Shown here: one piece after another, positions 16,743-31,435 of the stretch
How the letters are laid out: each line of letters begins with the position of its first letter
Position numbering within the stretch: position 1 is the stretch's first letter
Source of the DNA: an uncultured Clostridia bacterium
GTDB lineage: Bacteria; Bacillota; Clostridia; TANB77; CAG-508
Assembly (NCBI GenBank): GCA_944390695.1
Contig: CALXQP010000008.1
Span: forward strand, 1 to 34,423
Direction: 5' to 3'
Length of the DNA stretch: 34,423 nucleotides
Program-made: the position numbers and the translations under genes
The notes under the pieces: generated by a model
What the model saw: only the letters and a program-made list of their open reading frames with translations
The model's database searches: none
Told to the model about the DNA's origin: nothing

Positions 16743-18929
16743 ATGGACAAAATTACTATCAAAATTGCAAGCGAATTAGGTATAAAAGATTCGCAAGTAG
16801 AAAATACAATAAAACTAATTGATGAAGGAAACACAATTCCATTTATAGCACGTTACAGGAAAGAAGTTACAGGAGGACTAAGTGATGAAATTTTAAGAGA
16901 TTTAGGTGAAAGATTAAATTATTTAAGAAATCTGGAAACTAGGAAAAATGAAGTTATTAAATCAATAGATGAACAAGGAAAATTAACAGATGAATTAACT
17001 CTAGCAATAGCAGCTGCTGAAACACTAGCAGAAGTAGAAGATTTATATAGACCATATAAACAAAAAAAGAAAACAAGAGCAACAGTTGCAAAAGCAAAAG
17101 GCCTAGAGCCTCTTGCAGATATAATAATAAAACAAGAAGAAAAAACTCCAATTGAAGAAATTGCTGTAAAATATATAAATATTGATAATTTATCTGATGA
17201 AGAAAAAAATGATAAAGATAAAGTTGTTGCAAATATTGAAGATGCAATTCAAGGAGCTTTAGACATAATAGCAGAAAATATTTCAGATAATGCAAAATAT
17301 AGAAAATATATAAAAAAAGTATGTTATCATGAAGGAACAATTAATACAAAAGCATCTGATTCTGAAAAAAGTTCTAATTATGAAATGTATTATGATTTTT
17401 CTGAATTGGTATGTAAACTTCCAAGTCACAGAATACTTGCAATAAATAGAGGTGAAAATGAAGAATTTATTAAAGTTTCTATAAATAAGCCTGAAGAAAA
17501 GATTTTATATTATATGCAAAAAGACATAATAAAAAGTCAAACTCAATTTACAGAAATGTTAAAAAATACAATTCTAGATTCATTCAAAAGATTAATTGAA
17601 CCATCTATTGATAGAGAAATTCGTTCTGATTTGACAGAAAAAGCAGAAGAAAAAGCAATTAAAGTTTTTGGTCAAAATGCTAAACAATTATTACTTGGAG
17701 CTCCTATAAAAGGTAAAACAGTTATGGGGTTTGACCCAGCATACAGAACAGGATGTAAAATTGCTGTAATTGATGAAACTGGTAAAGTTTTAGATACTGC
17801 TACAGTATATCCAACAGAGCCACAAAATGATATAGAAAATGCTAAAAAAACTTTACTAAATTTAATTGAAAAACATCATATTGATATAATTGCAATTGGA
17901 AATGGAACAGCTTCAAGAGAATCTGAAGCATTTGTTGCAGACATGATAAAAGAAGTAAAACATGAAATTTGTTATGTTATAGTTAGTGAAGCTGGTGCAT
18001 CAGTATATTCAGCTTCAAAACTTGCAACAGAAGAATATCCTGATATAAATGTTTCAATAAGAGGTGCAATTTCAATTGCTCGTAGACTTCAAGACCCTCT
18101 TGCTGAACTTGTAAAAATTGATCCAAAAGCAATTGGAGTTGGCCAATACCAACATGATGTAAATCAAAAAAAATTATCTGAAAGTTTAACAGGTGTTGTT
18201 GAAGATAGTGTTAACAAAGTTGGTGTAGATGTAAATACTGCAACTCCATCTCTTCTTTCTTATGTTTCAAGTATTAATAATACAATGGCAAAAAATATCG
18301 TTAAATATAGAGATGAAAATGGAAAATTAAAAGAAAGAAAAGAATTATTAAAAGTTCCTAAATTAGGCAAAGTCGCATTTGAACAATGTGCAGGTTTCAT
18401 AAGAATTCCAGATGGAATAAATCCACTAGAAAATACAGCAGTTCATCCAGAAAGTTATGAGCAAACAGAAAAACTTTTGGATCTACTTGGATTTAAAATT
18501 AATGATTTAAAAAATAAAGAAACTCTAAATTCTTTACGAGAAAAGTTAAAATCAATTGATATTCCAACTTTTGCTCAAAAACTTGATATTGGTGAAATGA
18601 CTTTAACAGACATTATATCTGAGCTTTCAAAACCTGGGCGTGACCCTAGAGATGATATGCCAAAACCTGTTCTTCGTAATGATGTCCTTAGTTTCGATGA
18701 TTTAGCAGATGGCATGATTTTAACTGGTACTGTTCGTAATGTTATTGATTTCGGTGCTTTTGTTGATATTGGTGTAAAATATGATGGTCTTGTTCATATT
18801 TCCGAAATGAGTAATTCTTTTATAAAATCTCCTTCTGAAATTGTTTCTGTAGGTGATGTTGTTAAAGTAAAAGTAATTAAAATTGATAAAGAACGTAAAA
18901 AAGTTGGACTTTCAATGAAAATCAATTAA
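16743..18929 (+). CDS. tex: Tex-family RNA-binding transcription accessory protein
   Basis: 728 residues, the normal Tex/YhgF length. The N-terminal helical region has the family's NTIPFIARYRKEVTGGL. The YqgF/RuvC-like nuclease fold begins at VMGFDPAYRTGCK, and helix-hairpin-helix segments follow (DVNTATPSLLSYV and ECAGF-like EQCAGFIRI). The C-terminal S1 RNA-binding domain (about 650-728) begins GMILTGTVRNVIDFGAFVDI. Tex binds nucleic acids and affects transcription and RNA turnover. AAGGAAGGA lies before the ATG. It is a single gene with its own promoter and a terminator just after the stop; the upstream neighbour pflB is divergent. Confidence 0.96.
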   Translation: MDKITIKIASELGIKDSQVENTIKLIDEGNTIPFIARYRKEVTGGLSDEILRDLGERLNYLRNLETRKNEVIKSIDEQGKLTDELTLAIAAAETLAEVEDLYRPYKQKKKTRATVAKAKGLEPLADIIIKQEEKTPIEEIAVKYINIDNLSDEEKNDKDKVVANIEDAIQGALDIIAENISDNAKYRKYIKKVCYHEGTINTKASDSEKSSNYEMYYDFSELVCKLPSHRILAINRGENEEFIKVSINKPEEKILYYMQKDIIKSQTQFTEMLKNTILDSFKRLIEPSIDREIRSDLTEKAEEKAIKVFGQNAKQLLLGAPIKGKTVMGFDPAYRTGCKIAVIDETGKVLDTATVYPTEPQNDIENAKKTLLNLIEKHHIDIIAIGNGTASRESEAFVADMIKEVKHEICYVIVSEAGASVYSASKLATEEYPDINVSIRGAISIARRLQDPLAELVKIDPKAIGVGQYQHDVNQKKLSESLTGVVEDSVNKVGVDVNTATPSLLSYVSSINNTMAKNIVKYRDENGKLKERKELLKVPKLGKVAFEQCAGFIRIPDGINPLENTAVHPESYEQTEKLLDLLGFKINDLKNKETLNSLREKLKSIDIPTFAQKLDIGEMTLTDIISELSKPGRDPRDDMPKPVLRNDVLSFDDLADGMILTGTVRNVIDFGAFVDIGVKYDGLVHISEMSNSFIKSPSEIVSVGDVVKVKVIKIDKERKKVGLSMKIN

Positions 18930-19018: not shown

Positions 19019-20086
19019 TTACCTAATATATTTTTCTTGAATTTCTTTTATTTCATCAAAATCATTTTCTAAAATATCTAAAAATACATCAGCAAGTTGT
19101 GGATCAAATTGTGTACCTTTACAATTTCTTATTTCATTTTTTACATATTCTAGATCTAATTTATCTCTATAACTTCTCCTACTTGTCATTGCATCAAATG
19201 TATCTGCAATTGCTGCAATTCTTGCAAGATATGGAATATCTTCACCTGCTAAACCTGAAGGATATCCTTTTCCATTATATTTTTCATGATGATGTTTTAC
19301 AATAGGAATAATATCTTTAAACATTGTTGCAGAACTTAAAATATGTGCACCTATTGATGGATGGTTTTTTATTTCTGAATATTCATCATCTGTGAGTTTT
19401 CCTGGTTTTAATAATATACTATCTGGAATTCCAATTTTGCCAATATCATGAAATAAACCACCTATTTTTAATAATTTAATTTGATCTTCTGGTAATCCAA
19501 CTTTTCTTCCAAGTAACACAGAATATTCTGAAACTCTATCAGAATGACCTCTTGTATATGTGTCTTTTGCTTCTACTGTATATCTTAATGTTTGCACAAT
19601 GTCTAAATATGCCTGCTCTAATTTTTCATTTGATTCTGCAAGTTCTTCATTTATTCTTTTTATTTCATACATTTGTTTTATTGATTTTATTCCTGATTCA
19701 ATTAATAATATTAATTGATCAAATTTATCACTTTTTTCACAATAACCTTGTATGTCTAATCTTTTTATAGTTTCTAGTGGTGGCGCCAAATCTTTATGAC
19801 CTGTTAGTAAAAGTATATATAATTCTTTATTAAATTTTCTTATTTCTTCTACTACTTCATCACCATGTAAAGGTGTCATCATAAAGTCTAATAGCATCAT
19901 ATCAAAATGCTCTTCTTTTACTCTTTCAATTGCTTCTACAGGATCTGTAATCCCTACAAATTCATAATTTGATTTTCTTAAAAATACAGATAATGATTCT
20001 AATATGCCCTCCTCATCATCAACTGCAATTATTTTATACTTCATTTCTTTTGTTCCGTTTAATTGTTCCTGAAGTGCTTTTCTCAT
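19019..20086 (-). CDS. Response regulator with HD-GYP output domain
   Basis: 355 residues. The receiver domain (about 16-135) has Asp23, Asp24, the phospho-acceptor Asp67 in LLDFMMTP and Lys119. A coiled linker (about 140-165) leads to an HD-GYP domain with HDIGKIGIPD (His214, Asp215), HHE (267-269) and NGKGYP (GYP 275-277). The metal-binding residues look complete, so an active cyclic-di-GMP phosphodiesterase is expected, although some HD-GYP proteins act on other cyclic dinucleotides. AGGGGTG lies nine bases before the chosen ATG. No kinase gene is adjacent on the same transcript; the nearest is the seven-helix kinase at 20752-22566. No GGDEF cyclase is seen in the window. Confidence 0.93.
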   Translation of the reverse strand: MRKALQEQLNGTKEMKYKIIAVDDEEGILESLSVFLRKSNYEFVGITDPVEAIERVKEEHFDMMLLDFMMTPLHGDEVVEEIRKFNKELYILLLTGHKDLAPPLETIKRLDIQGYCEKSDKFDQLILLIESGIKSIKQMYEIKRINEELAESNEKLEQAYLDIVQTLRYTVEAKDTYTRGHSDRVSEYSVLLGRKVGLPEDQIKLLKIGGLFHDIGKIGIPDSILLKPGKLTDDEYSEIKNHPSIGAHILSSATMFKDIIPIVKHHHEKYNGKGYPSGLAGEDIPYLARIAAIADTFDAMTSRRSYRDKLDLEYVKNEIRNCKGTQFDPQLADVFLDILENDFDEIKEIQEKYIR

Positions 20087-20383: not shown

Positions 20384-20409
20384 TTAGTATATTATTATTG
20401 GAGGTCATA

Positions 20410-20703
20410 ATGGAAAAAGAAAATATAGATGAAAAACAAACAGCAGATATTTCTGAAGAAGAAATTGACACTAATCCTTCTATAGCCAATGAAAATACTA
20501 CTTCTTCTATATCTGATAAAAACAATGCTTCTTCTACAAATATAACAGAATGCCATGAAATTGAAGAACCTTGTGTTGCTTTAACTATTATAGGTGAAAA
20601 TAAGCTTACAGATGCAGAAGTTTTTGTTAGGCGTGGAATAAAATTTTCTATAAAAGCTTTTTTTTCTACTCTTGTACTTACAATTATGCATATGTTTATG
20701 TAA
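20410..20703 (+). CDS. Small acidic protein with hydrophobic C-terminal tail, unknown
   Basis: 97 residues, not recognised. The first 50 or so residues are acidic and rich in Ser, Thr and Asn, as in disordered segments. A short middle part follows with two cysteines (ECHEIEEPC) and TIIGENKLTDAEVFVRRG. The last 20 residues are hydrophobic (FSIKAFFSTLVLTIMHMFM), which fits a tail-anchored membrane protein. An in-frame TTG lies just upstream, but GGAGGT sits four bases before the ATG at 20410, so this start is clear. It has its own promoter with an operator-like palindrome and a strong terminator. It lies between two signalling genes on the opposite strand and may be linked to them. Confidence 0.75.
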   Translation: MEKENIDEKQTADISEEEIDTNPSIANENTTSSISDKNNASSTNITECHEIEEPCVALTIIGENKLTDAEVFVRRGIKFSIKAFFSTLVLTIMHMFM

Positions 20704-20751: not shown

Positions 20752-22566
20752 TTATTTTTTAATTGGAATAATTATATTAAAAGTTGTTCCTTTTCCATCT
20801 TCAGAATTATAAGTAATATCTCCACCAAAACGTGCTTTAATATTTGAATAAGACATATATAATCCAAGACCTGTTCCATTTTTACCTTTAGTAGTTACCA
20901 TTTCTTTAAATAACTTATCTTTAACTTCTTCAGGTAAGCCTCCGGCAAAATCGGTTATGCTAAATATTACTTCACTACCTTTTTTATTAACTTCAAGTTG
21001 TATATTTTTGTCATGAACTCCATTATATGCTTGTATTGAATTTGAAATCATATTATTTACAACTTGAACTAGACTATTTACATCTCCTTTTAATATCAAG
21101 TTTTCATCTGTTTTCATTAATACATTAAGATATATATATGCATTTTTTAATTCATGTTTCATTAAAATATTTACTCTTTTTACAAGTTCACCAATTGTAA
21201 ATGAATCTTCTTCATTATTAGCAAGAGCCACAGCTTGTCCTTTTACAGTTGTAATAATATCTGACATATATTCTAAATGTGTTTTTATTTTAGGTATCCA
21301 TGCTTCCATTTCTCCAGCAATTTCATGATGATCTTTAGAATTTACAAGTGGGTCATCAATAGAACTATCATATTCTTTTATTAATTCATCTATCCCCTCT
21401 ATTGCACCCGCAATTGACATTATAGGTGTTTTTAAATTATGTGCTATTCCACCTATTAATTGTCCTAAAGATGCTAAACGCTCTCTTTCCATAAGTATTT
21501 CTTGATTATTTTTAATTGTTTCTAAATCTAGTTTGTGTTGTGTTATATCTTTTAATAATACTAATGTACCAAGTGTCGCTTTATCGGCATTTATAGTTGT
21601 TATCTCTATTGTAAAATATTTATTTATCCCTTCAAATTTTTGTTCATATGAAACTGTTGTATTGGTTTTTTTAGCTTTTTCTATAGATCTTTCTATTTTG
21701 TCACTTTTTATTATATATTTTTTATTTACTTGTAAAAATTCAATGAAATTCTTTCCCCTTATATTTTCACTATTTAATTTAAAAGTATTTAATAAAGTTT
21801 GGTTAAAATCTATAATACAATTATTGTTATCTAAAACAATATAACTATCTGACATCCTATCTACAATTTTTTGTAAAGCTATAGGTGCTACACCCAAAAA
21901 CTGAAATTTTAAAATTGAAAGTGCAAAAAGTAATACTGCTACTGTAAATGTGATAGGTGTTACATAAATTGACATTGGTATTATTTTAAATGTTCCTAAT
22001 ATATTTATAACAACAGGAATACTTATTCCCAAAACAATCAAAGTTGATTGTTTTGAGAAAAATCCTGAATTTCTTATAGAAAATTTTAATAAATAAAATA
22101 TTCCTATTCCTAATAATGCGTATGAGTATATATTATGTATTGTCATATAAGGACCATATATTGTATCTTCAAAATTAGTTGAATATTGTTCATAAAATAA
22201 ATGATGATAATCATTTGTCCATAATACTAATAGTGATATTATCGGTATTATAAACATTAATAAATATTTTTTCTTAAATTGTATTTTTGTGTTTGCAAAT
22301 ATTAATCCTGTAAAGAAAATACTTACTGGTAAAAAACATCCACCTATATATGAAAAATATTCAAATCTTATAGGATCTATATTAAATTTTTCTGCAAATA
22401 ATAACTGTGCTAAAACTGATGCTGTTAATATTATCAATAGGCCTACATCTATTTCAAATATTTTTTTTATTTGATTTTTATTTTTTCTCTTTGCTATATA
22501 TATAAATAATATTACAGATATTATTATAGATATTGTTAACATTGGTATATATATATATGTATTCAT
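20752..22566 (-). CDS. Histidine kinase with seven-helix N-terminal sensor and PAS domain
   Basis: 604 residues. Seven hydrophobic helices fill residues 1 to about 225, matching the N-terminal seven-transmembrane kinase sensor type. A PAS domain follows (about 230-340, SYIVLDNNNCIIDFN). The dimerisation domain has His376 in GIAHNLKTPI, unusual in having HNLKTP rather than HELKTP. The ATPase domain has NNMISNSIQAY, DFAGGLP and GTGLGLYMS. The start lies seven bases after the NRPS stop and its AAGGGGG ribosome binding site is inside the NRPS gene, so the two are co-transcribed and probably translationally coupled. No response regulator is in this operon. The ligand is unknown; a lipophilic or peptide product of the NRPS is a reasonable guess. 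Confidence 0.92.
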   Translation of the reverse strand: MNTYIYIPMLTISIIISVILFIYIAKRKNKNQIKKIFEIDVGLLIILTASVLAQLLFAEKFNIDPIRFEYFSYIGGCFLPVSIFFTGLIFANTKIQFKKKYLLMFIIPIISLLVLWTNDYHHLFYEQYSTNFEDTIYGPYMTIHNIYSYALLGIGIFYLLKFSIRNSGFFSKQSTLIVLGISIPVVINILGTFKIIPMSIYVTPITFTVAVLLFALSILKFQFLGVAPIALQKIVDRMSDSYIVLDNNNCIIDFNQTLLNTFKLNSENIRGKNFIEFLQVNKKYIIKSDKIERSIEKAKKTNTTVSYEQKFEGINKYFTIEITTINADKATLGTLVLLKDITQHKLDLETIKNNQEILMERERLASLGQLIGGIAHNLKTPIMSIAGAIEGIDELIKEYDSSIDDPLVNSKDHHEIAGEMEAWIPKIKTHLEYMSDIITTVKGQAVALANNEEDSFTIGELVKRVNILMKHELKNAYIYLNVLMKTDENLILKGDVNSLVQVVNNMISNSIQAYNGVHDKNIQLEVNKKGSEVIFSITDFAGGLPEEVKDKLFKEMVTTKGKNGTGLGLYMSYSNIKARFGGDITYNSEDGKGTTFNIIIPIKK

Positions 22567-22573
22567 TAGTAAA

Positions 22574-25500
22574 TTAATCCCCCTTTAATTTTATATTTAA
22601 ATATCCTATTTCTATTAGATATTCCAAATATTTTCTTATATATTTTATATCTATTTCAGGCCATTCAAAATTTAATTTTTTTAGGAAATCTTTTGTAAAA
22701 TCTTCTGTAATTTTAATATTAGATTCATATATTAATTTTCTATTTGAATCAAAATCTTGTATTATTCCTTGCAATATGTTAGATTTATCTTTATCATGTA
22801 ATATTTCATCTACTACTTTTAGGAATTCCTCAGAAGATACTATATTTACATTAATTCCTAGTTCTTTTAATATATCATAAAATTTTATAAGTGGCAAATG
22901 TTTATAATTTAATATGTGAAGTATTGAAAATTCTTTATTATAATGATTAGCAATTTTTATTATTGCATCAGCACTATAGTCTATTGGTGTAAATTCCACA
23001 TATCCTTTAGTCATATAATCTGGTACACAACCTATTTGTAAAAATGTTTTAATTCTACCAACAAAAGCATTTTCTAAGTGATTTTGTTGAAATTTTCCTT
23101 CTGAATATCTACTTGTTAAATTACCCATTCTTAATATATAAGCATTTAAACCATTTAAAATTCCATCTAATACTTCTTTTTCTGCCAAAAACTTACTTCT
23201 TACATATAAATTTTCTAAGTTTTGTCTTACATAAAATCTGTTTTCTCCATAGATTATATCTTCTTTTATTTCATTTTCTATAAATGCTCCTTCTGCAAAA
23301 TTATTGCCAGATACACTAATTGTAGATATATGCATTAATCTTACATTAAATCTTTTGCAAAAATCAACAACTCTTTTAGTTCCTTTAACATTTATTTCTT
23401 CAAATTCTTTATAATTTCCAAAATGTTTTACTAATGCTGCTGAATGGATTACTGTAGTAATATCATTTCCAAGATTTTTATATTCTTGTTCTGATAATCC
23501 TAAGTTTTCTTGAGTAATATCTCCTTCTATGCATATTATTCTATTTCCTATATATTTATCATATTTATCTTCAAAATAAAAATGTAATGTATTTTTTAAT
23601 CTATCAAGTGAAGACATATGATTTTTGTTTCTTATTAAACAATATATTATTCCTTTTTCTTGTTTTAAATAACTATCTAAAATATGAGCTCCAAGAAATC
23701 CTGTAACACCTGTTAATAATACATTTCCTATTGGTGTATATTCTAAATTTTTATTACTTAAATTTTCTACAGTGTTTTTATTAATTATGCCATCATATTT
23801 TTCTACACCTTTCATTGTATTAATTAAGTGGATTTCTGTATCATTTTCTATATAATCTGCTAATAATTTTACAGTTGGGTATTTGAATATATCTCCATAT
23901 GTAATATTTATATCATTTTTTAATGCTTCTATTTGCAATCTCATAGCACTAATAGAATCTCCACCACATTCAAAGAAATTATCATCTATGCTTATTTTTT
24001 CGACTTTTAAAATATCTTCAAATATTTTGGCTATTTTTTTCTCTATATCACTAGATGGTTCTATAAAATCTTTTTTATCTTGATATTGATTTACAATATC
24101 AGGTAATGCATTTTTATCTATCTTACCATTTTGGTTTTTAGGTAATGACTTTAATTGAACAATATATTTTGGTATCATATATTGCGGTAAAAATTTTGAC
24201 ATATATGTTTTTAATTGATCTATATCTATTTGTTTTTTAGCCACAATATATGTACATATTGCTTTTTCATTTTTTACATCTTTATATACAGTATAAGCTT
24301 CATTAATATCATCATATAAATTCACTATTGTTGTAATTTCACTTAGCTCTACTCTAAAACCTCTTATCTTTATTTGGCTGTCAATTCTTCCCATAAATTC
24401 TATAGTACCATCAGAATTCCATTTTGTCAAATCTCCTGTTTTATATACTGTTCCAGAACCAAATGGATTTTTAATGAATTTTTCTTTTGTTAAATCAGGA
24501 TTATTTAAATATCCTTTTGCAACACCATCTCCTCCTACCCATAGTTCTCCTGGTATTCCTATAGGTTGTAGATTTCCATTTTTAGACATTATATAACATG
24601 TTGAATTTGAAATTGGTTTTCCTATTGGTATTGCATTTTTATATTTTTTCTCAATCTTATGGCAACATGAAAATGTTGTATTTTCTGTAGGTCCATATCC
24701 ATTTATTATAATCAAATCAGGATTTGCAGTTTTTACCATATTTACATGTTTACAAGATAAAACATCTCCTCCTGTTAATACACATCTAACTGTTCTAAAC
24801 ATATGTGGATTTTCTTCAACTAATTGATTAAATAATGGTGCTGTTAACCATAATACACTAATTTTATTTTTTAATATATATGTATGTAATTGTTCTGCAT
24901 CTAATAATTCTTCTTTTCTTATTATATATAATTCTAATCCATTTAATAATGCTCCCCATATCTCAAAAGTACATGCATCAAAAACAATTGAACCTGTTTG
25001 CAAAATTTTATCATTTTCTTCAAATTTAATATAATTAGGATTTTTAACAAGTCTTACAATACTTTTATTTTCGATCATTACTCCTTTTGGTCTTCCTGTA
25101 GAACCAGATGTATACATTATATAAGCTAAATCTGAATTTTTACCATTATAATTAATATTTTGTATATCTTTTGATGAGTATATTGTTTCTGTATCTAAAT
25201 CAATATATATTGATTTTATAAGTAATCTCGCATCTAAATTTAGTTCTCTTGAAGTTAATAATATTTTAGCATTTGAATCTTTTAAAATATATTCTATTCT
25301 TTCTTTTGGATATCCTATATCTATTGGTAAATATGCACAACCTATTTTTAAAATTGCTATTATTGCTATTATTGCTTCTAAAGATTTATCTAATAAAATT
25401 GGAATAATATCTCCACTGGTTATACCTTGTTTTATCATATAATTAGCTAATTGATTAGCTCTTTCATTTAATTCTTTATATGTTAATTCATTTCCATCAA

Positions 25501-28500
25501 AAACAATTGCAATTTTATTTGGTGTTTTATTTGCTTGCTCCTCAAATAACTGAATTACAGTCTTATCCTTTGGATATGTTTTATTTAGATCGTTAAATTC
25601 AAATAATATCCTATTTTTTTCGTCTTTTGAAGTTATTTGAATATCTCTAATCTTTGTTTGAATATTTTCCACAACATATTTAATTGTATTCATATAATGT
25701 TCAAATAATCTTTCAATTGTTTGTTTTTCAAATAAATCTGTACAATATTCTACATTTATTGTATGTGTTTTAGGTTTTATTTCCAATGACAAATTAAATT
25801 TAGATATATTATTATCTAATTCTACTATTTTACAGTCTTTTTCACCAATTTTAATTATGTTTTCTTCTTTGTTTTGATATGTAAATAATATATCAAATAA
25901 TGGATTTCTAGAAGTATCACTCTTAACTCCCAACTTTTTTACTAACATATCAAAAGGATATGGTTGATTTGATAAATCTTCTAAAACTTGATTTTTAATC
26001 TCATTCAAAAATTCACCAAATGTTTCTTCAGGATTTACTTTCCCTCTAATTACTATATTATTTACAAACATACCTATCATTCTTTTTGTCTCATTTATAT
26101 CTCTATTAGCCATTGGGCTACCTAGAATTATATCATCTTGACCTGTATATTTATATAATAATATAATAAATGCAGATATGAAAAACATATATGGAGAAAC
26201 ACCAATTTTTTTAGCATATCTTTCTATTTTTCTAAAATATTTTTCGTTAATTACATTAGTTATTTTACTTCCTTTATAAGTTCTATTTGCAGATAAAGTG
26301 TAATCATATGGTAAATTCAATTGTTCAAAATCTGAATCTTTAAGCTTTTCTACCCAATATTTTTCATGTTCTTTTAGTTCTTCACTTTGGTTATACTTAT
26401 TTTCCCAAACTGCATAATCTTTATATTGAATTGGAATTTTCTTTAAATTATCTCCATTATATATTCTATTAAACTCTATAATCAAATTATTTAATCCTGC
26501 ACCATCCATTATAATATGATGAGTATCAACTAATATAAGAGTTTTCTTATTATCTATATAATGTAATTCAACTCTAATTAAAGGCTCTTTTTCTAAATTA
26601 AATGGTTTTGAAAAGTTTTTAGTAATTTCTTTTATCTCATCTTCACTGTTTTCAAATACAGGTATATCTAATTCTAGTTTTTCAGTAATTTTTTGTACTA
26701 CATCATTATCTTTTAATATAAATGAAGTTCTTAGAGTACTATGTCTTTCAATAATTTTATTAAATATTTCTTTTACTCTATTAATATCCAAAATCTCATC
26801 AACCATAATTCCGCCAGGCATATTATAAACAGTATTTTGTTCACCTATCATTTTAGAATTATAATAAATTCTTTTTTGTGCAGAAGAAAGTGGATATACT
26901 TCTTGCTCAGGTGCTTTTTCTATTTTTATTTTTGCAAAACCTTTAGCTTGATTTTCTCTAATAATATCTGAAATATCTTTTAAAGTTTTATTTGACATTA
27001 TATCTTTTATATATATTTGTACATTAAATTTAGATGATATTTTAGTAGATAATGTAATTGCTGTTAAAGAATCTCCTCCTAAATCTAATAAATTATCTGC
27101 TAAACTTACTTTTTCTGAATGTACTATTTTTTTAACTATTTCTAGTAATTGTTTATCAATTTCATTTCTTACTTCTATTTTTTCTTTCAAATTTTCTTTC
27201 AATATAGGCATTGGTAAAGCTTTTTTATCAATTTTTCCATTTGGAGTATATGGCAATTCATCTAATTTTATAAAATATTGTGGTACCATATATTGTGGCA
27301 ATTTATTTTGTAACCCAATTTTAATTGTTTCTTCACTAATAGGTGCATTTGTAGTGTAATAAGCACATAAGGCATCTCTTCCATTTACTAGTTTTTTTAC
27401 AACAACTGCATTTGTTATACTATATATTGATGAAATTTGTTTTTCTATTTCAGAAAGTTCTACTCTCAAACCTCTAATTTTTACTTGATTATCAATTCTT
27501 CCAAAACATTTAATTTCTCCATTTTCATCAAATGTTCCCAAATCTCCTACTTTATACATAATTTTCCCATCAATAAATGGATTTTGCACAAAACTTTCTT
27601 TAGTTTGTGTTTCTTTATTCATATATCCTTTTCCTACGCCATCACCTGATATGTATATTTCTCCTATTGTTCCTTGTGGCATAAGTTTTTTATTTTTATT
27701 TAATATATAAATTTGTGTATTATGTATAGGTCTTCCTATTGTTATATCACTTTGATTTGTTACATTTGCTACAGCAGAAAATATCGTTGTTTCAGATGGA
27801 CCATATCCATTATAAATTGTAACATCTGGTATAATTTCTTTTATTTCATCTACAAGAGTTTTTGGAAGTTGTTCACCTGCAAGCATAATATATTTTAGAC
27901 TTTGCAAATTTTCTTTATTTTTTACATTCTCTAAATGAAATTTCATTATAGATGGAGTTGTTTGCATAATTTCTACTTGGTTTGTTTTTATAATTCTTTC
28001 CAATTCTGAAGTCATTTTTTGTTCATTTTCATTTGTCATATATATAGTTAAACCTCTTGTTAATGAAATTAATGATTCAAATTCAAATATATCAAATGAA
28101 ACTGTTGTAATTGAAAGTATTTTATGTTGTTTTCCATCTTTTAAATAATCTATCTTATTTTTCATTGAATTATAGAAATTGCTTAAATTTTTCTGTTTTA
28201 ACATTACCCCTTTTGGAGTTCCTGTTGAACCTGATGTATAAATTAAATATGATAAATCTTCAGGTTTTGATATATTTTCTAAATTAGTTTTATTATTTTC
28301 ATATAATTCATTACCTAATTTGATATTGATTACTTTTTTATCAGTCTTGAATTTTGGTTGTTTCTTAACTAATAATATATTTGAATTACTATCTTGTAAC
28401 ATATATTGAATTCTCTCAGCAGGATAATCTGGAGCAATTGGAATAAAACTTCCTCCAGCTTTTAATGTTGCTAATATTGCTATCATCATTTCAAATGAAC

Positions 28501-30055
28501 GCTCTACCATAATTCCAACAATAGAATTATTTGTTACACCAGATTTTCTAAGTTTATTTGCTAAACTATTTGCTTTTTCATTTAAATCTTTATATGTCAT
28601 TTTCTTATTTTCAAAAACAATTGCTATATTTGTAGGTGTTTCTTCTGCTTGTTTTTCAAAATATTTAATTATTGGAATATTTTCATCATATTCTAATTCT
28701 GTTTTATTAAAATCTGTAATTAATTTCTTTTTTTCTTCTTTTGTTACTATATCAATATCTTTTAATATTATATTTTCTTTAGAAATTACTTGTTTTATAA
28801 TATTTATTATTCTTTTATGTATATTTTCTATATCTGAACTTTCATAAATACTTGTTTTATAATCATACGCAATATTTAAACTTCCTGTATCATTTAAATC
28901 AAAAATTTGAATATCCATATTATCTGCACAATATCCATTAAAATTCCATTCAGTCTCATAAACTACATCTCCACCACTCATTTGTGCATTTGTAATTTGA
29001 TAAGATAATAAAATATTGTACAAATTTGGTATATTTTTATTTTTTTCTCTCAAATTTTCCAAAAAGCATTGATATGAATATTTTTGGTGTTTCAACATAT
29101 TCATTGAATCAATTGCTATATTTTTAATAAAAGTTTTAAAATCATCTTCTTGTTTTAAATTAATTTTAAATGGCGTCATATTTATAAACATTCCTGGTGC
29201 ATTTTTTTCTTTAAAATTTGTTCTATTTAATATTGGTGTTCCAATAACGAATTCATCTAAATTAGATATTTCTCCTATATATATTGCATAAATTCCCATA
29301 AAAAAATTGTATAAAGATATATTATTGTATTTGCAATATTGTTTGATTTCTTCTACAAATTTTTCATCTAATTTAAATAATTTTCTTTCTCCTGCTGGAT
29401 TGCTTTCATCACAATTTGTTTTGCTTCCTGGTATTGTTGCAACTTCAGGAATTGTTTGGAATTTTTCTTCCCAATATTTTTTGTCTTTTTCAAATTTTTC
29501 GCTTTTTAGATATTGTTCCTCAGATTTGATATAATCTATATATGAATATATAGCTTCTGTTTCTATTTTTTGATTTTGTTTTAATTCTGAATATGTTTTG
29601 ATTATTTCATTACAAGAAAGCGCAAGTGTCCACGCATCAGCAATGATATGGTGAATATTAATAATAAACGCACCTTCACCATTATTAAATTTAATGATAT
29701 AAAAATTAAATAACTCTGAATTTTCAAGCACAAATGGCTTTTGAATAATTTTTTTTCTTACTTTTTCTAATTCTTTTTGATCAGCAACATTAATGATATC
29801 TATCTTGATTGGCTCATCAGATAATACCTGTTTTACTTCTCCATCTTTTATTTTTAGACGCAATTTAAAATTATCGTGCTTTTTATACACAATTTCCATA
29901 GCTTCTTTTAATTTTTCAAATTCTACTTTTTCTTTAATTGTTGCTGTTCCACATATTGTGTTTATACTACTTCCTTTGTAGTATTCCTCTGTTACCCAAA
30001 TTGATTTTTGTGAATTTGTTAATCCCCACATTTTCTCTAACATCCTTTTCCCCAT
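22574..30055 (-). CDS. Two-module nonribosomal peptide synthetase with reductase release (C-A-T-C-A-T-R)
   Basis: 2493 residues. Order: condensation 1 (about 1-440; HHIIADAW at 135-142), adenylation 1 (about 465-950; YTSGSTG at 606-612, NGKIDK Lys941), carrier 1 (Ser996 in LGGDSL), condensation 2 (about 1055-1490; HHIIMDG at 1179-1185), adenylation 2 (about 1510-1990; YTSGSTG at 1648-1654, Lys1978), carrier 2 (Ser2034 in CGGDSI), and a thioester reductase (about 2105-2493; TGVTGFLG with Gly2116, Tyr2284 and Lys2288 of YVRSK). No epimerase or thioesterase is present. NAD(P)H-dependent release should give a dipeptide aldehyde, which may be N-acylated or may cyclise to a pyrazinone. Such enzymes are known from gut Clostridia and as AusA of staphylococci. 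The outermost ATG is given; the ATG at 30043 is also plausible. Base composition matches the neighbours. Confidence 0.96.
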   Translation of the reverse strand: MGKRMLEKMWGLTNSQKSIWVTEEYYKGSSINTICGTATIKEKVEFEKLKEAMEIVYKKHDNFKLRLKIKDGEVKQVLSDEPIKIDIINVADQKELEKVRKKIIQKPFVLENSELFNFYIIKFNNGEGAFIINIHHIIADAWTLALSCNEIIKTYSELKQNQKIETEAIYSYIDYIKSEEQYLKSEKFEKDKKYWEEKFQTIPEVATIPGSKTNCDESNPAGERKLFKLDEKFVEEIKQYCKYNNISLYNFFMGIYAIYIGEISNLDEFVIGTPILNRTNFKEKNAPGMFINMTPFKINLKQEDDFKTFIKNIAIDSMNMLKHQKYSYQCFLENLREKNKNIPNLYNILLSYQITNAQMSGGDVVYETEWNFNGYCADNMDIQIFDLNDTGSLNIAYDYKTSIYESSDIENIHKRIINIIKQVISKENIILKDIDIVTKEEKKKLITDFNKTELEYDENIPIIKYFEKQAEETPTNIAIVFENKKMTYKDLNEKANSLANKLRKSGVTNNSIVGIMVERSFEMMIAILATLKAGGSFIPIAPDYPAERIQYMLQDSNSNILLVKKQPKFKTDKKVINIKLGNELYENNKTNLENISKPEDLSYLIYTSGSTGTPKGVMLKQKNLSNFYNSMKNKIDYLKDGKQHKILSITTVSFDIFEFESLISLTRGLTIYMTNENEQKMTSELERIIKTNQVEIMQTTPSIMKFHLENVKNKENLQSLKYIMLAGEQLPKTLVDEIKEIIPDVTIYNGYGPSETTIFSAVANVTNQSDITIGRPIHNTQIYILNKNKKLMPQGTIGEIYISGDGVGKGYMNKETQTKESFVQNPFIDGKIMYKVGDLGTFDENGEIKCFGRIDNQVKIRGLRVELSEIEKQISSIYSITNAVVVKKLVNGRDALCAYYTTNAPISEETIKIGLQNKLPQYMVPQYFIKLDELPYTPNGKIDKKALPMPILKENLKEKIEVRNEIDKQLLEIVKKIVHSEKVSLADNLLDLGGDSLTAITLSTKISSKFNVQIYIKDIMSNKTLKDISDIIRENQAKGFAKIKIEKAPEQEVYPLSSAQKRIYYNSKMIGEQNTVYNMPGGIMVDEILDINRVKEIFNKIIERHSTLRTSFILKDNDVVQKITEKLELDIPVFENSEDEIKEITKNFSKPFNLEKEPLIRVELHYIDNKKTLILVDTHHIIMDGAGLNNLIIEFNRIYNGDNLKKIPIQYKDYAVWENKYNQSEELKEHEKYWVEKLKDSDFEQLNLPYDYTLSANRTYKGSKITNVINEKYFRKIERYAKKIGVSPYMFFISAFIILLYKYTGQDDIILGSPMANRDINETKRMIGMFVNNIVIRGKVNPEETFGEFLNEIKNQVLEDLSNQPYPFDMLVKKLGVKSDTSRNPLFDILFTYQNKEENIIKIGEKDCKIVELDNNISKFNLSLEIKPKTHTINVEYCTDLFEKQTIERLFEHYMNTIKYVVENIQTKIRDIQITSKDEKNRILFEFNDLNKTYPKDKTVIQLFEEQANKTPNKIAIVFDGNELTYKELNERANQLANYMIKQGITSGDIIPILLDKSLEAIIAIIAILKIGCAYLPIDIGYPKERIEYILKDSNAKILLTSRELNLDARLLIKSIYIDLDTETIYSSKDIQNINYNGKNSDLAYIMYTSGSTGRPKGVMIENKSIVRLVKNPNYIKFEENDKILQTGSIVFDACTFEIWGALLNGLELYIIRKEELLDAEQLHTYILKNKISVLWLTAPLFNQLVEENPHMFRTVRCVLTGGDVLSCKHVNMVKTANPDLIIINGYGPTENTTFSCCHKIEKKYKNAIPIGKPISNSTCYIMSKNGNLQPIGIPGELWVGGDGVAKGYLNNPDLTKEKFIKNPFGSGTVYKTGDLTKWNSDGTIEFMGRIDSQIKIRGFRVELSEITTIVNLYDDINEAYTVYKDVKNEKAICTYIVAKKQIDIDQLKTYMSKFLPQYMIPKYIVQLKSLPKNQNGKIDKNALPDIVNQYQDKKDFIEPSSDIEKKIAKIFEDILKVEKISIDDNFFECGGDSISAMRLQIEALKNDINITYGDIFKYPTVKLLADYIENDTEIHLINTMKGVEKYDGIINKNTVENLSNKNLEYTPIGNVLLTGVTGFLGAHILDSYLKQEKGIIYCLIRNKNHMSSLDRLKNTLHFYFEDKYDKYIGNRIICIEGDITQENLGLSEQEYKNLGNDITTVIHSAALVKHFGNYKEFEEINVKGTKRVVDFCKRFNVRLMHISTISVSGNNFAEGAFIENEIKEDIIYGENRFYVRQNLENLYVRSKFLAEKEVLDGILNGLNAYILRMGNLTSRYSEGKFQQNHLENAFVGRIKTFLQIGCVPDYMTKGYVEFTPIDYSADAIIKIANHYNKEFSILHILNYKHLPLIKFYDILKELGINVNIVSSEEFLKVVDEILHDKDKSNILQGIIQDFDSNRKLIYESNIKITEDFTKDFLKKLNFEWPEIDIKYIRKYLEYLIEIGYLNIKLKGD

Positions 30056-30319: not shown

Positions 30320-31435
30320 ATGTTAAAAAAAATTAGAAGAATTTTATTATTTTTAATATTAATCAGTATAATTGCAATATCAATTTATTATTTGTATATT
30401 ACATATAATCAAATTGAAATTACACCAAATTATGAAATTAAGCGTACTGAATCCACAATTGATTTACAAACTGTGGAAAACGTCACTCAAGAAAGTGAAA
30501 CAATTGCAAATGTTTTAGAAAAATTTTCCCAAAGTGTTGTAGGAATATCAAAAATAAAATCACATTCTACATCAATATTTTCCAGTTCAAATTCGATAAA
30601 TGAATTAGGGCTTGGAACTGGAATAATAGTTTCAAGTAATGGCTATATTTTAAGTAATTGCCATGTTACAGGAGAAGAACTTTCAACATGTTACATTACT
30701 TTAGAAAATGGCTATACTTATGAGGGTTCTGTAGTTTGGTGTGACAAAGAACTAGATTTATCATTAACTAAAATTGATGCTACAAATTTAACATATGCAA
30801 CACTTGGAAACTCATCTAATATAAAATCTGGTCAAACTGTTTATGCAATTGGAAATCCAATTGGTTATGAATTTAGGCGAACTACTACTTCTGGAATTAT
30901 AAGTGCTACAAATAGAACAATACGTATAGAAGAAAATGACAGTGTTTCATATATGACAGATTTAATACAAACAGATGCATCAATAAATCCTGGAAATAGT
31001 GGTGGTCCATTAATTAATCCATCAGGAGAAGTTATTGGAGTTAATACTGTAAAAATATCTTCTGCTGAAGGAATTGGCTTTGCTGTTCCAATTAATGCAG
31101 TAAAACCAGTTATTGAAAAATTTATAAATGAAAATAAATTTGATGAAGCATTTCTTGGAATATATGCTTATGATAAAGAAGTTATTCCATATATTTCATC
31201 TACTCCAAACTTCACATCTGGAATCTATGTTGTTCATATTGATGAAAATAGTCCTGCAATTTCTAGTGGAATTCAAACAGGTGATATTATAACATCAATT
31301 GATAGTAAAGTAATTAACAATATGATTGAATTAAAAGAATATATTTACTCAAAAATACCTGGTGAAACCATTTCTATTAATATTAGTCGTGGTCATATAA
31401 CTAGAACTTTTAATATTGTACTATCACAAAAATAA
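30320..31435 (+). CDS. Membrane-anchored HtrA/DegP-type serine protease
   Basis: 371 residues. An N-terminal hydrophobic anchor (about 8-28) is followed by a short linker and a trypsin-like protease domain. The triad is His115 (SNCHV), Asp146 (ELDLSL) and Ser227 (NPGNSGGPL). The C-terminal PDZ domain (about 275-371) includes GIQTGDIITSIDSKVI. The protein would sit outside the membrane and degrade misfolded exported proteins. A cysteine precedes the catalytic histidine where alanine or asparagine is usual. AGGAGA lies before the ATG. It is divergent from the NRPS, with 264 bases between them, and is the last gene before a small ORF. The family is clear; which htrA paralogue it is cannot be said. 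Confidence 0.95.
   Translation: MLKKIRRILLFLILISIIAISIYYLYITYNQIEITPNYEIKRTESTIDLQTVENVTQESETIANVLEKFSQSVVGISKIKSHSTSIFSSSNSINELGLGTGIIVSSNGYILSNCHVTGEELSTCYITLENGYTYEGSVVWCDKELDLSLTKIDATNLTYATLGNSSNIKSGQTVYAIGNPIGYEFRRTTTSGIISATNRTIRIEENDSVSYMTDLIQTDASINPGNSGGPLINPSGEVIGVNTVKISSAEGIGFAVPINAVKPVIEKFINENKFDEAFLGIYAYDKEVIPYISSTPNFTSGIYVVHIDENSPAISSGIQTGDIITSIDSKVINNMIELKEYIYSKIPGETISINISRGHITRTFNIVLSQK

Follow-up and report, generated by a model that had tools for sequence, protein, structure and literature searches.

Does a histidine kinase that is encoded directly behind a nonribosomal peptide synthetase (NRPS) sense the product of that synthetase? The question is raised by a locus in the window, a stretch of 34,423 nucleotides that is one contig (C8) in the assembly of an uncultured Clostridia bacterium (1.31 Mb in 69 contigs, 86% complete, 26% G+C). 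A sequence-only reading of this DNA had proposed that the NRPS releases a dipeptide aldehyde and that this aldehyde, or a pyrazinone formed from it, is sensed by the kinase in an autoinducer-like or feedback circuit. In this study, the gene order, distribution and variation of the NRPS, the kinase and their neighbours were compared across related genomes.

Organization of the locus

The minus strand of the window encodes, in order of transcription, the NRPS, the kinase and, beyond a small convergent ORF, a REC-HD-GYP response regulator (Table 1). The domain order and spacing that had been claimed for the first two genes were borne out by ORF and Pfam analysis. Seven bases (22567-22573) separate the NRPS stop from the kinase ATG, and the kinase ribosome binding site that had been placed inside the NRPS gene has a candidate in a purine-rich AAAGGGGG within the last NRPS codons. 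The regulator lies 665 bp from the kinase. A consensus scan found no classical terminator between these two genes; by eye, an AT-rich inverted repeat can be made out behind the kinase stop. The product of the small ORF has a C-terminal hydrophobic stretch, and a 63% identical copy is found at the same place in L202.

Table 1. Features of the NRPS-kinase locus and its flanks (positions in the window)
Feature	Position	Strand	Remarks
Tex	16743..18929	+	frequent flanking gene; served as chromosomal landmark
REC-HD-GYP response regulator	19019..20086	-	355 aa; HDIGK and HHHEKYNGKGYP motifs
Small ORF	20398-20703	+	101 aa; between kinase and regulator, convergent
Histidine kinase	20752..22566	-	604 aa; ORF and Pfam
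Kinase core, aa 346-604	20752..21531	-	AHNLKTP phospho-acceptor motif
Kinase PAS linker, aa 229-345	21532..21882	-	PAS_9 below cut-off; fold elements 241-340
Kinase 7TM sensor, aa 1-228	21883..22566	-	PF16927, 3.4e-39
NRPS, C-A-T-C-A-T-R	22574..30055	-	2493 aa; ORF and Pfam
R (thioester reductase) domain	22595..23716	-	PF07993, 6.6e-51
A2 domain	24122..25546	-	pocket code DAFLLGGTF; Pfam
C2 domain	25607..26905	-	motif HHIIMDG; Pfam
A1 domain	27176..28690 (approximate bounds)	-	9-letter pocket code DIFQMAGIF; Pfam
C1 domain (N-terminal)	28721..30022 (approximate bounds)	-	motif HHIIADA; Pfam
HtrA-type serine protease	30320..31435	+	divergent from NRPS, upstream; frequent neighbour

Genomes and loci compared

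The family search covered 145 genomes including the window's own, with thresholds of E <= 1e-40 for the kinase and E <= 1e-20 for a 402-residue region of the R domain. The family genomes are fragmented drafts and probably all metagenome-assembled genomes (MAGs). The loci were compared in a panel of 109 (L063-L171), 108 of which were counted; the kinase of L171 is truncated and has no core call. L198-L217 were added for the sensor and architecture counts (128 kinases in total) and L172-L178 were excluded. A further set comprises 80 named GTDB loci, mostly from Clostridia and all labelled as MAGs or uncultured bacteria, and it overlaps the panel in part.

Distribution of the NRPS and the kinase

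The kinase was matched in 109 and the R region in 108 of the 145 family genomes. Both were present in 107 genomes and neither in 35, while two genomes had the kinase only (G023 and G073) and one the R region only (G072) (Fisher p 4.8e-30, uncorrected for kinship). Of the 107 genomes having both, 105 have the kinase match directly behind the R region and on the same strand; the exceptions are G024, in which they are 9.6 kb apart, and G033, in which they are on separate contigs. The distance between the two matches was 11-290 bp in 65 genomes and 1117-1679 bp in 40, the longer distances arising because the sensor differs in those loci and the kinase match spans the core alone. In the panel, an NRPS piece was found upstream by script in 101 of 108 loci; among the remaining seven an NRPS is near in L118, L128, L162 and L166 and not in L101, L117 and L143. 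Absence of the kinase beside orthologous NRPS genes, which the sequence-only reading had named as the observation that would count against it, was looked for and is not the pattern that the family genomes show. The pair is missing from 35 genomes in 20 genera, and 17 of these genera also hold genomes with the pair. The presence of the pair has therefore changed repeatedly, with the exact number of changes blurred by genome incompleteness.

The arrangement extends beyond the family. In families f2-f5 of the same order 38 genomes with the kinase were examined, of which 35 have the R region and 32 have it adjacent. Among the named GTDB loci (the best 80 of 565 relatives), an NRPS piece lies directly upstream in 77. 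At the class level the kinase was found in 37 of 291 genomes, 27 of them beyond the order. The R region was matched in 10 of these 27 and not in the other 17, and by coordinates it is adjacent to the kinase in four (G540, G301, G325 and G443). The surroundings of the kinase were read in three of the 27 genomes. In G495 (family f11; L298:1-3714) a 7TM kinase overlaps the end of an NRPS by 11 bases. The last domain of this NRPS is not an SDR reductase, and a BLAST comparison with the window R domain gave no match; the models it resembles are those of PigE (5.9e-12) and, weakly, of acyl-ACP reductase (0.0058) and glutamyl-tRNA reductase (0.068), all far below the cut-offs. Given these matches, an aldehyde may be made there by another type of reductase, in which case unrelated release domains would serve the same receptor type. 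In G545 (family f43; L299:2-3976) the NRPS end is 48% identical to that of G495 and lies 27 bp before the kinase. In G522 (family f30) no NRPS is found within the 2.5 kb read beside the distant kinase, which is preceded by a REC-HTH protein; its receiver is 41% identical to that of the window regulator over 125 residues, which supports this receiver type as a partner of the kinase. Separately, adjacent kinase pairs with the same core (about 44-59%) were observed in family f56 (G373, G398, G463 and G503, with genomes of 3-5 Mb), none of them beside an R-domain match.

The REC-HD-GYP regulator and other flanking genes

The circuit had first been read as one of two genes, the regulator not being mentioned; the regulator co-occurs with the pair and has to be added to it. 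With an identity of at least 60%, it was found in 107 of the 110 genomes having the NRPS or the kinase and in 2 of the 35 having neither (G082 and G109). Three genomes have the kinase and no regulator at this threshold (G023, G049 and G093). The regulator is less than 3 kb from the kinase in 73 genomes, 3-20 kb away in 15, and farther away or on another contig in 18. Given these 18 genomes, the co-occurrence is not merely due to the loss of one stretch of the assembly. Six genomes that lack the pair (G107, G071, G123, G055, G043 and G009) have 219-955 bp between the HtrA match and that of a regulator homologue, a gap too short for the NRPS or the kinase, which indicates that the pair was gained or lost as a unit between HtrA and the regulator. 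In the first three of these genomes the homologue was matched from residue 120 onward only. In genus g30, five genomes without the pair (G030, G057, G097, G114 and G129) have open frames about 226-231 aa long that match the HD-GYP part only; these homologues seem to have lost the receiver.

Pfam detected no DNA-binding domain in the regulator. Its co-occurrence with the pair and its HD-GYP motif suggest that its output would be exerted through cyclic di-GMP (c-di-GMP). The window's own genome encodes a REC protein with a GGDDF motif and another protein with a degenerate GGDEF motif (both by eye), and matches to the GGDEF model, many of them partial, were found in all 145 family genomes.

An HtrA gene is present in 67 of the 108 panel stretches and is often divergent from the NRPS. 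This neighbour is consistent with a role of the locus in self-protection or damage sensing, in which the aldehyde would act as a protease inhibitor against other bacteria and the kinase would detect either this compound or the impairment of surface proteases by it, and bring about tolerance. Dipeptide aldehydes made by gut NRPSs are reported to be protease inhibitors in the available text of two papers (PMC8210680, PMC12327764). However, an HtrA-type match is present in each of the 35 genomes that lack the pair (in 16 of them full length at an identity of at least 45%) and stands beside the regulator homologue in six of the 35, and among HtrA, Tex and the regulator only the regulator closely follows the presence of the pair. 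Moreover, the sensing of an effect would not require a sensor that tracks the A-domain pockets, as is described below. Self-protection is thus considered quite unlikely. Since HtrA-type genes persist without the NRPS-kinase system, HtrA is regarded as a frequent neighbour and at most a candidate member of the circuit.

The kinase and its two sensor classes

The window kinase matches HisKA_7TM (PF16927; 135 bits, cut-off 28.6) and HATPase_c (PF02518; 70 bits, cut-off 26.4), while PAS_9 and HisKA are below the Pfam cut-offs. An AlphaFold2 model (mean pLDDT 75, pTM 0.41) has seven long N-terminal helices (residues 3-25, 32-57, 65-92, 99-116, 139-167, 172-192 and 202-220). The protein thus combines the N-terminal 7TM region and the HATPase_c domain of a 7TM histidine kinase. 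The matches listed by a PDB fold search with the whole model are kinases and multi-domain signalling proteins, with nothing on a 7TM ligand.

The seven-helix sensor that had been described for the window holds for only a part of the loci. Of the 128 kinases, 83 have the 7TM-PAS sensor, 40 have an unrelated type and 5 are broken or unassigned; both sensor types sit on the same AHNLKTP core. By hydropathy (five members), the second sensor has several TM segments with about 100 residues between two of them. No Pfam family above the cut-off was found in the sensor part of four members (L106, L112, L163 and L166); in one of them HAMP is matched below the threshold. The sensor classes also differ in the architecture of the synthetase (T domains not scored). 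Complete NRPSs beside a 7TM kinase are C-A-C-A-R (48), C-A-R (7, including L092, in which a frame break divides a bimodular NRPS) or three-module (4), while all 31 complete NRPSs beside a second-sensor kinase are monomodular C-A-R.

Two further arrangements were observed. In L142 (2004-5700) and L162 (about 2.1-6 kb, partly broken) tandem kinases with the same core follow one NRPS, possibly as a result of sensor duplication or ongoing replacement. In L176 and L177 (genus g38) there is a second, diverged cassette (about 6.5-16.4 kb of L176) with a monomodular NRPS and a kinase (29%) whose sensor resembles the second type by eye, followed by genes for a 326-aa REC protein without an HD-GYP match, a PLP decarboxylase and an S-adenosylmethionine synthetase-like protein (by eye).

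NRPS domains and the predicted product

In the window NRPS, Pfam identifies two Condensation, two AMP-binding and two PP-binding domains and a single thioester reductase domain (NAD_binding_4), and the motifs HHIIADA (135), HHIIMDG (1179), GGDS (twice), GVTGFLG (2116) and YVRSK (2284) are present. The terminal thioester reductase, an AusA-type feature, is supported by its PF07993 match and its motifs, and from its domain family it is expected to release the chain as an aldehyde. The best NCBIfam model for the protein is AusA (NF047350), with 1698 bits against a cut-off of 2500, and the solved chains nearest to the R domain are 6vtj and then the AusA reductase (4f6c/4f6l). AusA has the order A-T-C-A-T-R and is not known to have an N-terminal C domain. 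The window NRPS departs from this order by an additional N-terminal C domain; it is related to the AusA family and lacks a defining feature of it. A terminal R domain is shared with AusA, described as a two-module NRPS (PMC12153313), which makes the aureusimines, and with the NRPSs of the gut dipeptide aldehydes (Guo 2017; ruminopeptin).

In a PDB search for its subtype, C1 matched C domains scattered across many proteins; it is probably a starter C domain. Because the NRPS opens with a C domain, unlike AusA, and no NRPS gene lies upstream of it within the window, the product is more likely an N-acylated, non-cyclising aldehyde than a free dipeptide aldehyde. The release of an aldehyde, as first proposed, is thus supported by the R domain, while the free form that would cyclise to a pyrazinone is made doubtful by the leading C domain. 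A long-chain acyl-CoA-ligase-like gene was observed near the NRPS (e.g. L099 14616-16340) in 21 of the 108 panel stretches and 4 of the 20 extra ones, and it is absent beside the window NRPS. Together with the leading C domain, these neighbours in other loci suggest N-acylation, with a fatty acyl starter.

The pocket codes of the A domains were read with the GrsA numbering. The A2 code differs by one letter from DAFWLGGTF, a code for valine. Among 78 non-redundant 7TM two-module loci there are 29 distinct A2 codes, and the diversity of products is therefore probably wide. Many NRPS frames in the panel are split into two or more ORFs or ended by contig edges, and the splits may stem from errors of assembly or from real decay.

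Exchange of cassettes between close relatives

Pairs of close relatives were compared at the same chromosomal place. Assembly chimeras might account for some of the differences, but both architectures occur in many genomes. In three pairs (L064/L106, L097/L150 and L112/L207, with core identities of 89%, 88% and 83%) a 7TM sensor with a bimodular NRPS in one locus is traded for the unrelated sensor with a monomodular NRPS in the other. L064 and L106, which are from one genus, are 97% identical in DNA over a stretch that opens ten bases ahead of the kinase core and includes 7 kb of flank, and they also have the upstream flank and the first NRPS domain (C1, 82%) in common. Between these two stretches A1 is 48% and R 40% identical, the second NRPS module is missing in one of the two, and the sensors are unrelated (23%). 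In L097/L150, from another genus, the regulator is 97%, the core 88% and the sensor 21% identical, and in L112/L207 the values are 97% for Tex, 93% for the regulator, 90% for HtrA, 83% for the core, 33-39% for the NRPS domains and 26% for the sensor.

Replacement was also found within a sensor class. In L095/L124 HtrA (98%), the core (96%) and the regulator (96%) are conserved, while C1 (40%), A1 (40%), C2 (44%), A2 (54%), R (54%) and the sensor (58%) have diverged. In L209/L217 the identity is 0.35-0.42 from A1 through the end of the 7TM region and 0.85-0.87 in C1, PAS and the core. Relatives with cores that are 83-96% identical thus differ strongly in the NRPS and the sensor, with the break near the junction of sensor and core. 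Pairs without an NRPS change (L125/L126, L116/L148, L121/L147, L090/L092, L209/L212 and L200/L201) keep a sensor identity of 85-100%. Where the enzyme was exchanged, the sensing half of the kinase was usually changed too.

Co-variation of the sensor with NRPS domains

Co-variation was examined in 103 complete loci with a 7TM kinase and a two-module NRPS (panel, extra and named loci; 78 after removal of near-duplicates) and in 31 loci of the second class; fragmented NRPSs (24 of 83 7TM rows and 9 of 40 second-type rows) are not included, and the locus pairs in these statistics are not independent of kinship. Among pairs with a core identity of at least 85%, the median identity of the 7TM region was 0.93 where R is at least 75% identical (13 pairs) and 0.44 where R is below 60% (22 pairs); with cores of at least 80% the medians were 0.93 (15 pairs) and 0.45 (83 pairs). 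Six of these 83 pairs are exceptions that keep a 7TM identity of at least 0.65, up to 0.85; in L064/L200, A2 and R have changed at a 7TM identity of 0.65.

Partial Mantel correlations with the 7TM region, given the core and PAS, were 0.59 for R, 0.47 for A2, 0.35 for C2, 0.30 for C1 and 0.25 for A1, and those of the pocket codes were 0.47 for A2 and 0.19 for A1. The core was not correlated with A2 given the 7TM region (-0.06), nor PAS with the A2 code given the core and the 7TM region (-0.06). In the second sensor class, given the core, the correlations were 0.86 for A, 0.86 for R and 0.61 for C, and that of the core with A given the sensor was -0.05. The sensor varies in step with the final A domain and with R, and the core does not. 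The synthase and the sensor vary jointly at the sequence level, with the exceptions above, while the core and the regulator are conserved. A separate observation concerns the PAS linker, for which the highest correlation (0.52, given the core and 7TM region) is with the distant C1, those with A2 and R being slight (0.12 and 0.06; 78 loci). This pattern, which could be a signal of the resident lineage or a second coupling, counts against a purely functional reading, as do the exceptions above.

The order of the correlations (R > A2 > C2 > C1, A1) is that of the distance along the DNA, and a fall with distance is what plain linkage within recombination tracts would give. The co-variation could thus be partly a matter of physical linkage. 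It could even be wholly so if the NRPS and the sensor lie in one hypervariable stretch in which the sensor hitch-hikes, the kinase sensing something else such as the state of the envelope. Recombination requires homologous DNA, and this is provided by the conserved core and flank. Such linkage without a ligand relation would nevertheless leave unexplained the co-absence of the synthetase, the kinase and a regulator that can lie elsewhere, the adjacency kept in families f2-f5, the pairing of this kinase type, in two further families, with an NRPS that ends in another kind of release domain, and the restriction of the second sensor class to monomodular NRPSs. For these reasons it is considered unlikely. 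Kinases situated in biosynthetic clusters are common, and the kinase could instead respond to an external cue and control NRPS expression, with the product as the response only. The sensor would then be expected to follow the niche rather than the A-domain pocket and the R domain, and the regulator has no DNA-binding domain by Pfam; such a feed-forward arrangement is regarded as very unlikely.

Proposed signalling circuit

We consider it probable that the three genes, for NRPS, kinase and REC-HD-GYP regulator, encode a single signalling circuit in which the kinase senses the NRPS aldehyde and sets the HD-GYP output. In this circuit the NRPS would join two amino acids, probably onto an acyl starter, and the R domain, judging from its family, would free a reactive peptide aldehyde from the enzyme. 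This aldehyde, or a compound derived from it, would be recognised by the sensor in the membrane half of the kinase, after passage from cell to cell or inside the producer, and the conserved core would pass phosphate to the regulator, shifting the level of c-di-GMP. Recombination would exchange the synthetase, in part or as a whole, along with the sensor half while the core and the regulator are kept, and lineages would therefore carry different "dialects". Recognition by the sensor is inferred from the adjacency, the co-absence, the joint replacement and the correlation with the pocket code. The self-sensing that was originally suggested is accordingly strongly supported at the genomic level, in the form of co-occurrence, adjacency across families and joint replacement of synthetase and sensor, and its ligand step stays a prediction from the genes. 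The broader reading, that NRPS-made peptide aldehydes are polymorphic pheromones of an order of gut Clostridia, read by co-inherited and cassette-exchanged kinases that act on c-di-GMP via HD-GYP, is given an even chance.

Relation to known systems

The Rpf system of Xanthomonas (RpfF-RpfC-RpfG), as described in the available text of PMC5391125, comprises the synthase of a small molecule (DSF), a multi-TM histidine kinase that perceives the signal and an HD-GYP regulator that is a c-di-GMP phosphodiesterase. The likeness is in the list of parts, since a synthase, a membrane kinase and a REC-HD-GYP regulator are encoded here by genes that are linked or co-occur as well. The present locus differs in having an NRPS with reductive release in place of an RpfF-type synthase, a non-hybrid kinase without a receiver domain, a 7TM-PAS or unrelated multi-TM sensor, and polymorphism. 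In the comQXPA locus of Bacillus, according to the available text of PMC4008528, the synthase gene adjoins that of a receptor kinase with a variable N-terminal membrane sensor and a conserved cytoplasmic core, and pherotype groups are formed. The pattern of variation is alike, being seen here in the sequences and the pherotypes being predicted. Unlike comQXPA, which has a ribosomal peptide pheromone and a DNA-binding regulator, the present locus has a predicted nonribosomal aldehyde and an HD-GYP regulator, and the sensor type itself is replaced. The agr locus of staphylococci is a synthase-receptor locus of the comQXPA kind. CqsA-CqsS and PhcB-PhcS, the synthase chemistry of which is unrelated to NRPSs, resemble the locus by description in that a small-molecule signal is combined with a membrane sensor kinase. 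The NRPS-kinase locus is a member of neither the Rpf nor the comQXPA systems.

The term "histidine kinase" is absent from the main text of three papers on related NRPS products (PMC8210680, PMC12327764, PMC12153313). No description of the NRPS-kinase pair was among the literature matches listed, and one may exist elsewhere in print. The co-inheritance and joint exchange point to an undescribed bacterial signalling system.

Implications

The best known products of such NRPSs are the staphylococcal aureusimines and the natural monoketopiperazines, the role of which is described as debated or elusive in the available text of two papers (PMC8210680, PMC12153313). A co-inherited and co-varying receptor kinase would be a candidate native target for such compounds. 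On the broader reading, the gut "protease inhibitor" aldehydes of this NRPS family would be signals first. If the proposed circuit is correct, quorum sensing would gain an NRPS-based, polymorphic system of dialects, natural pairs of sensor and product would be available for many pocket types, and it could become clear why a synthetase of 7.5 kb is kept in gut bacteria with genomes of about 1.1-2.3 Mb.
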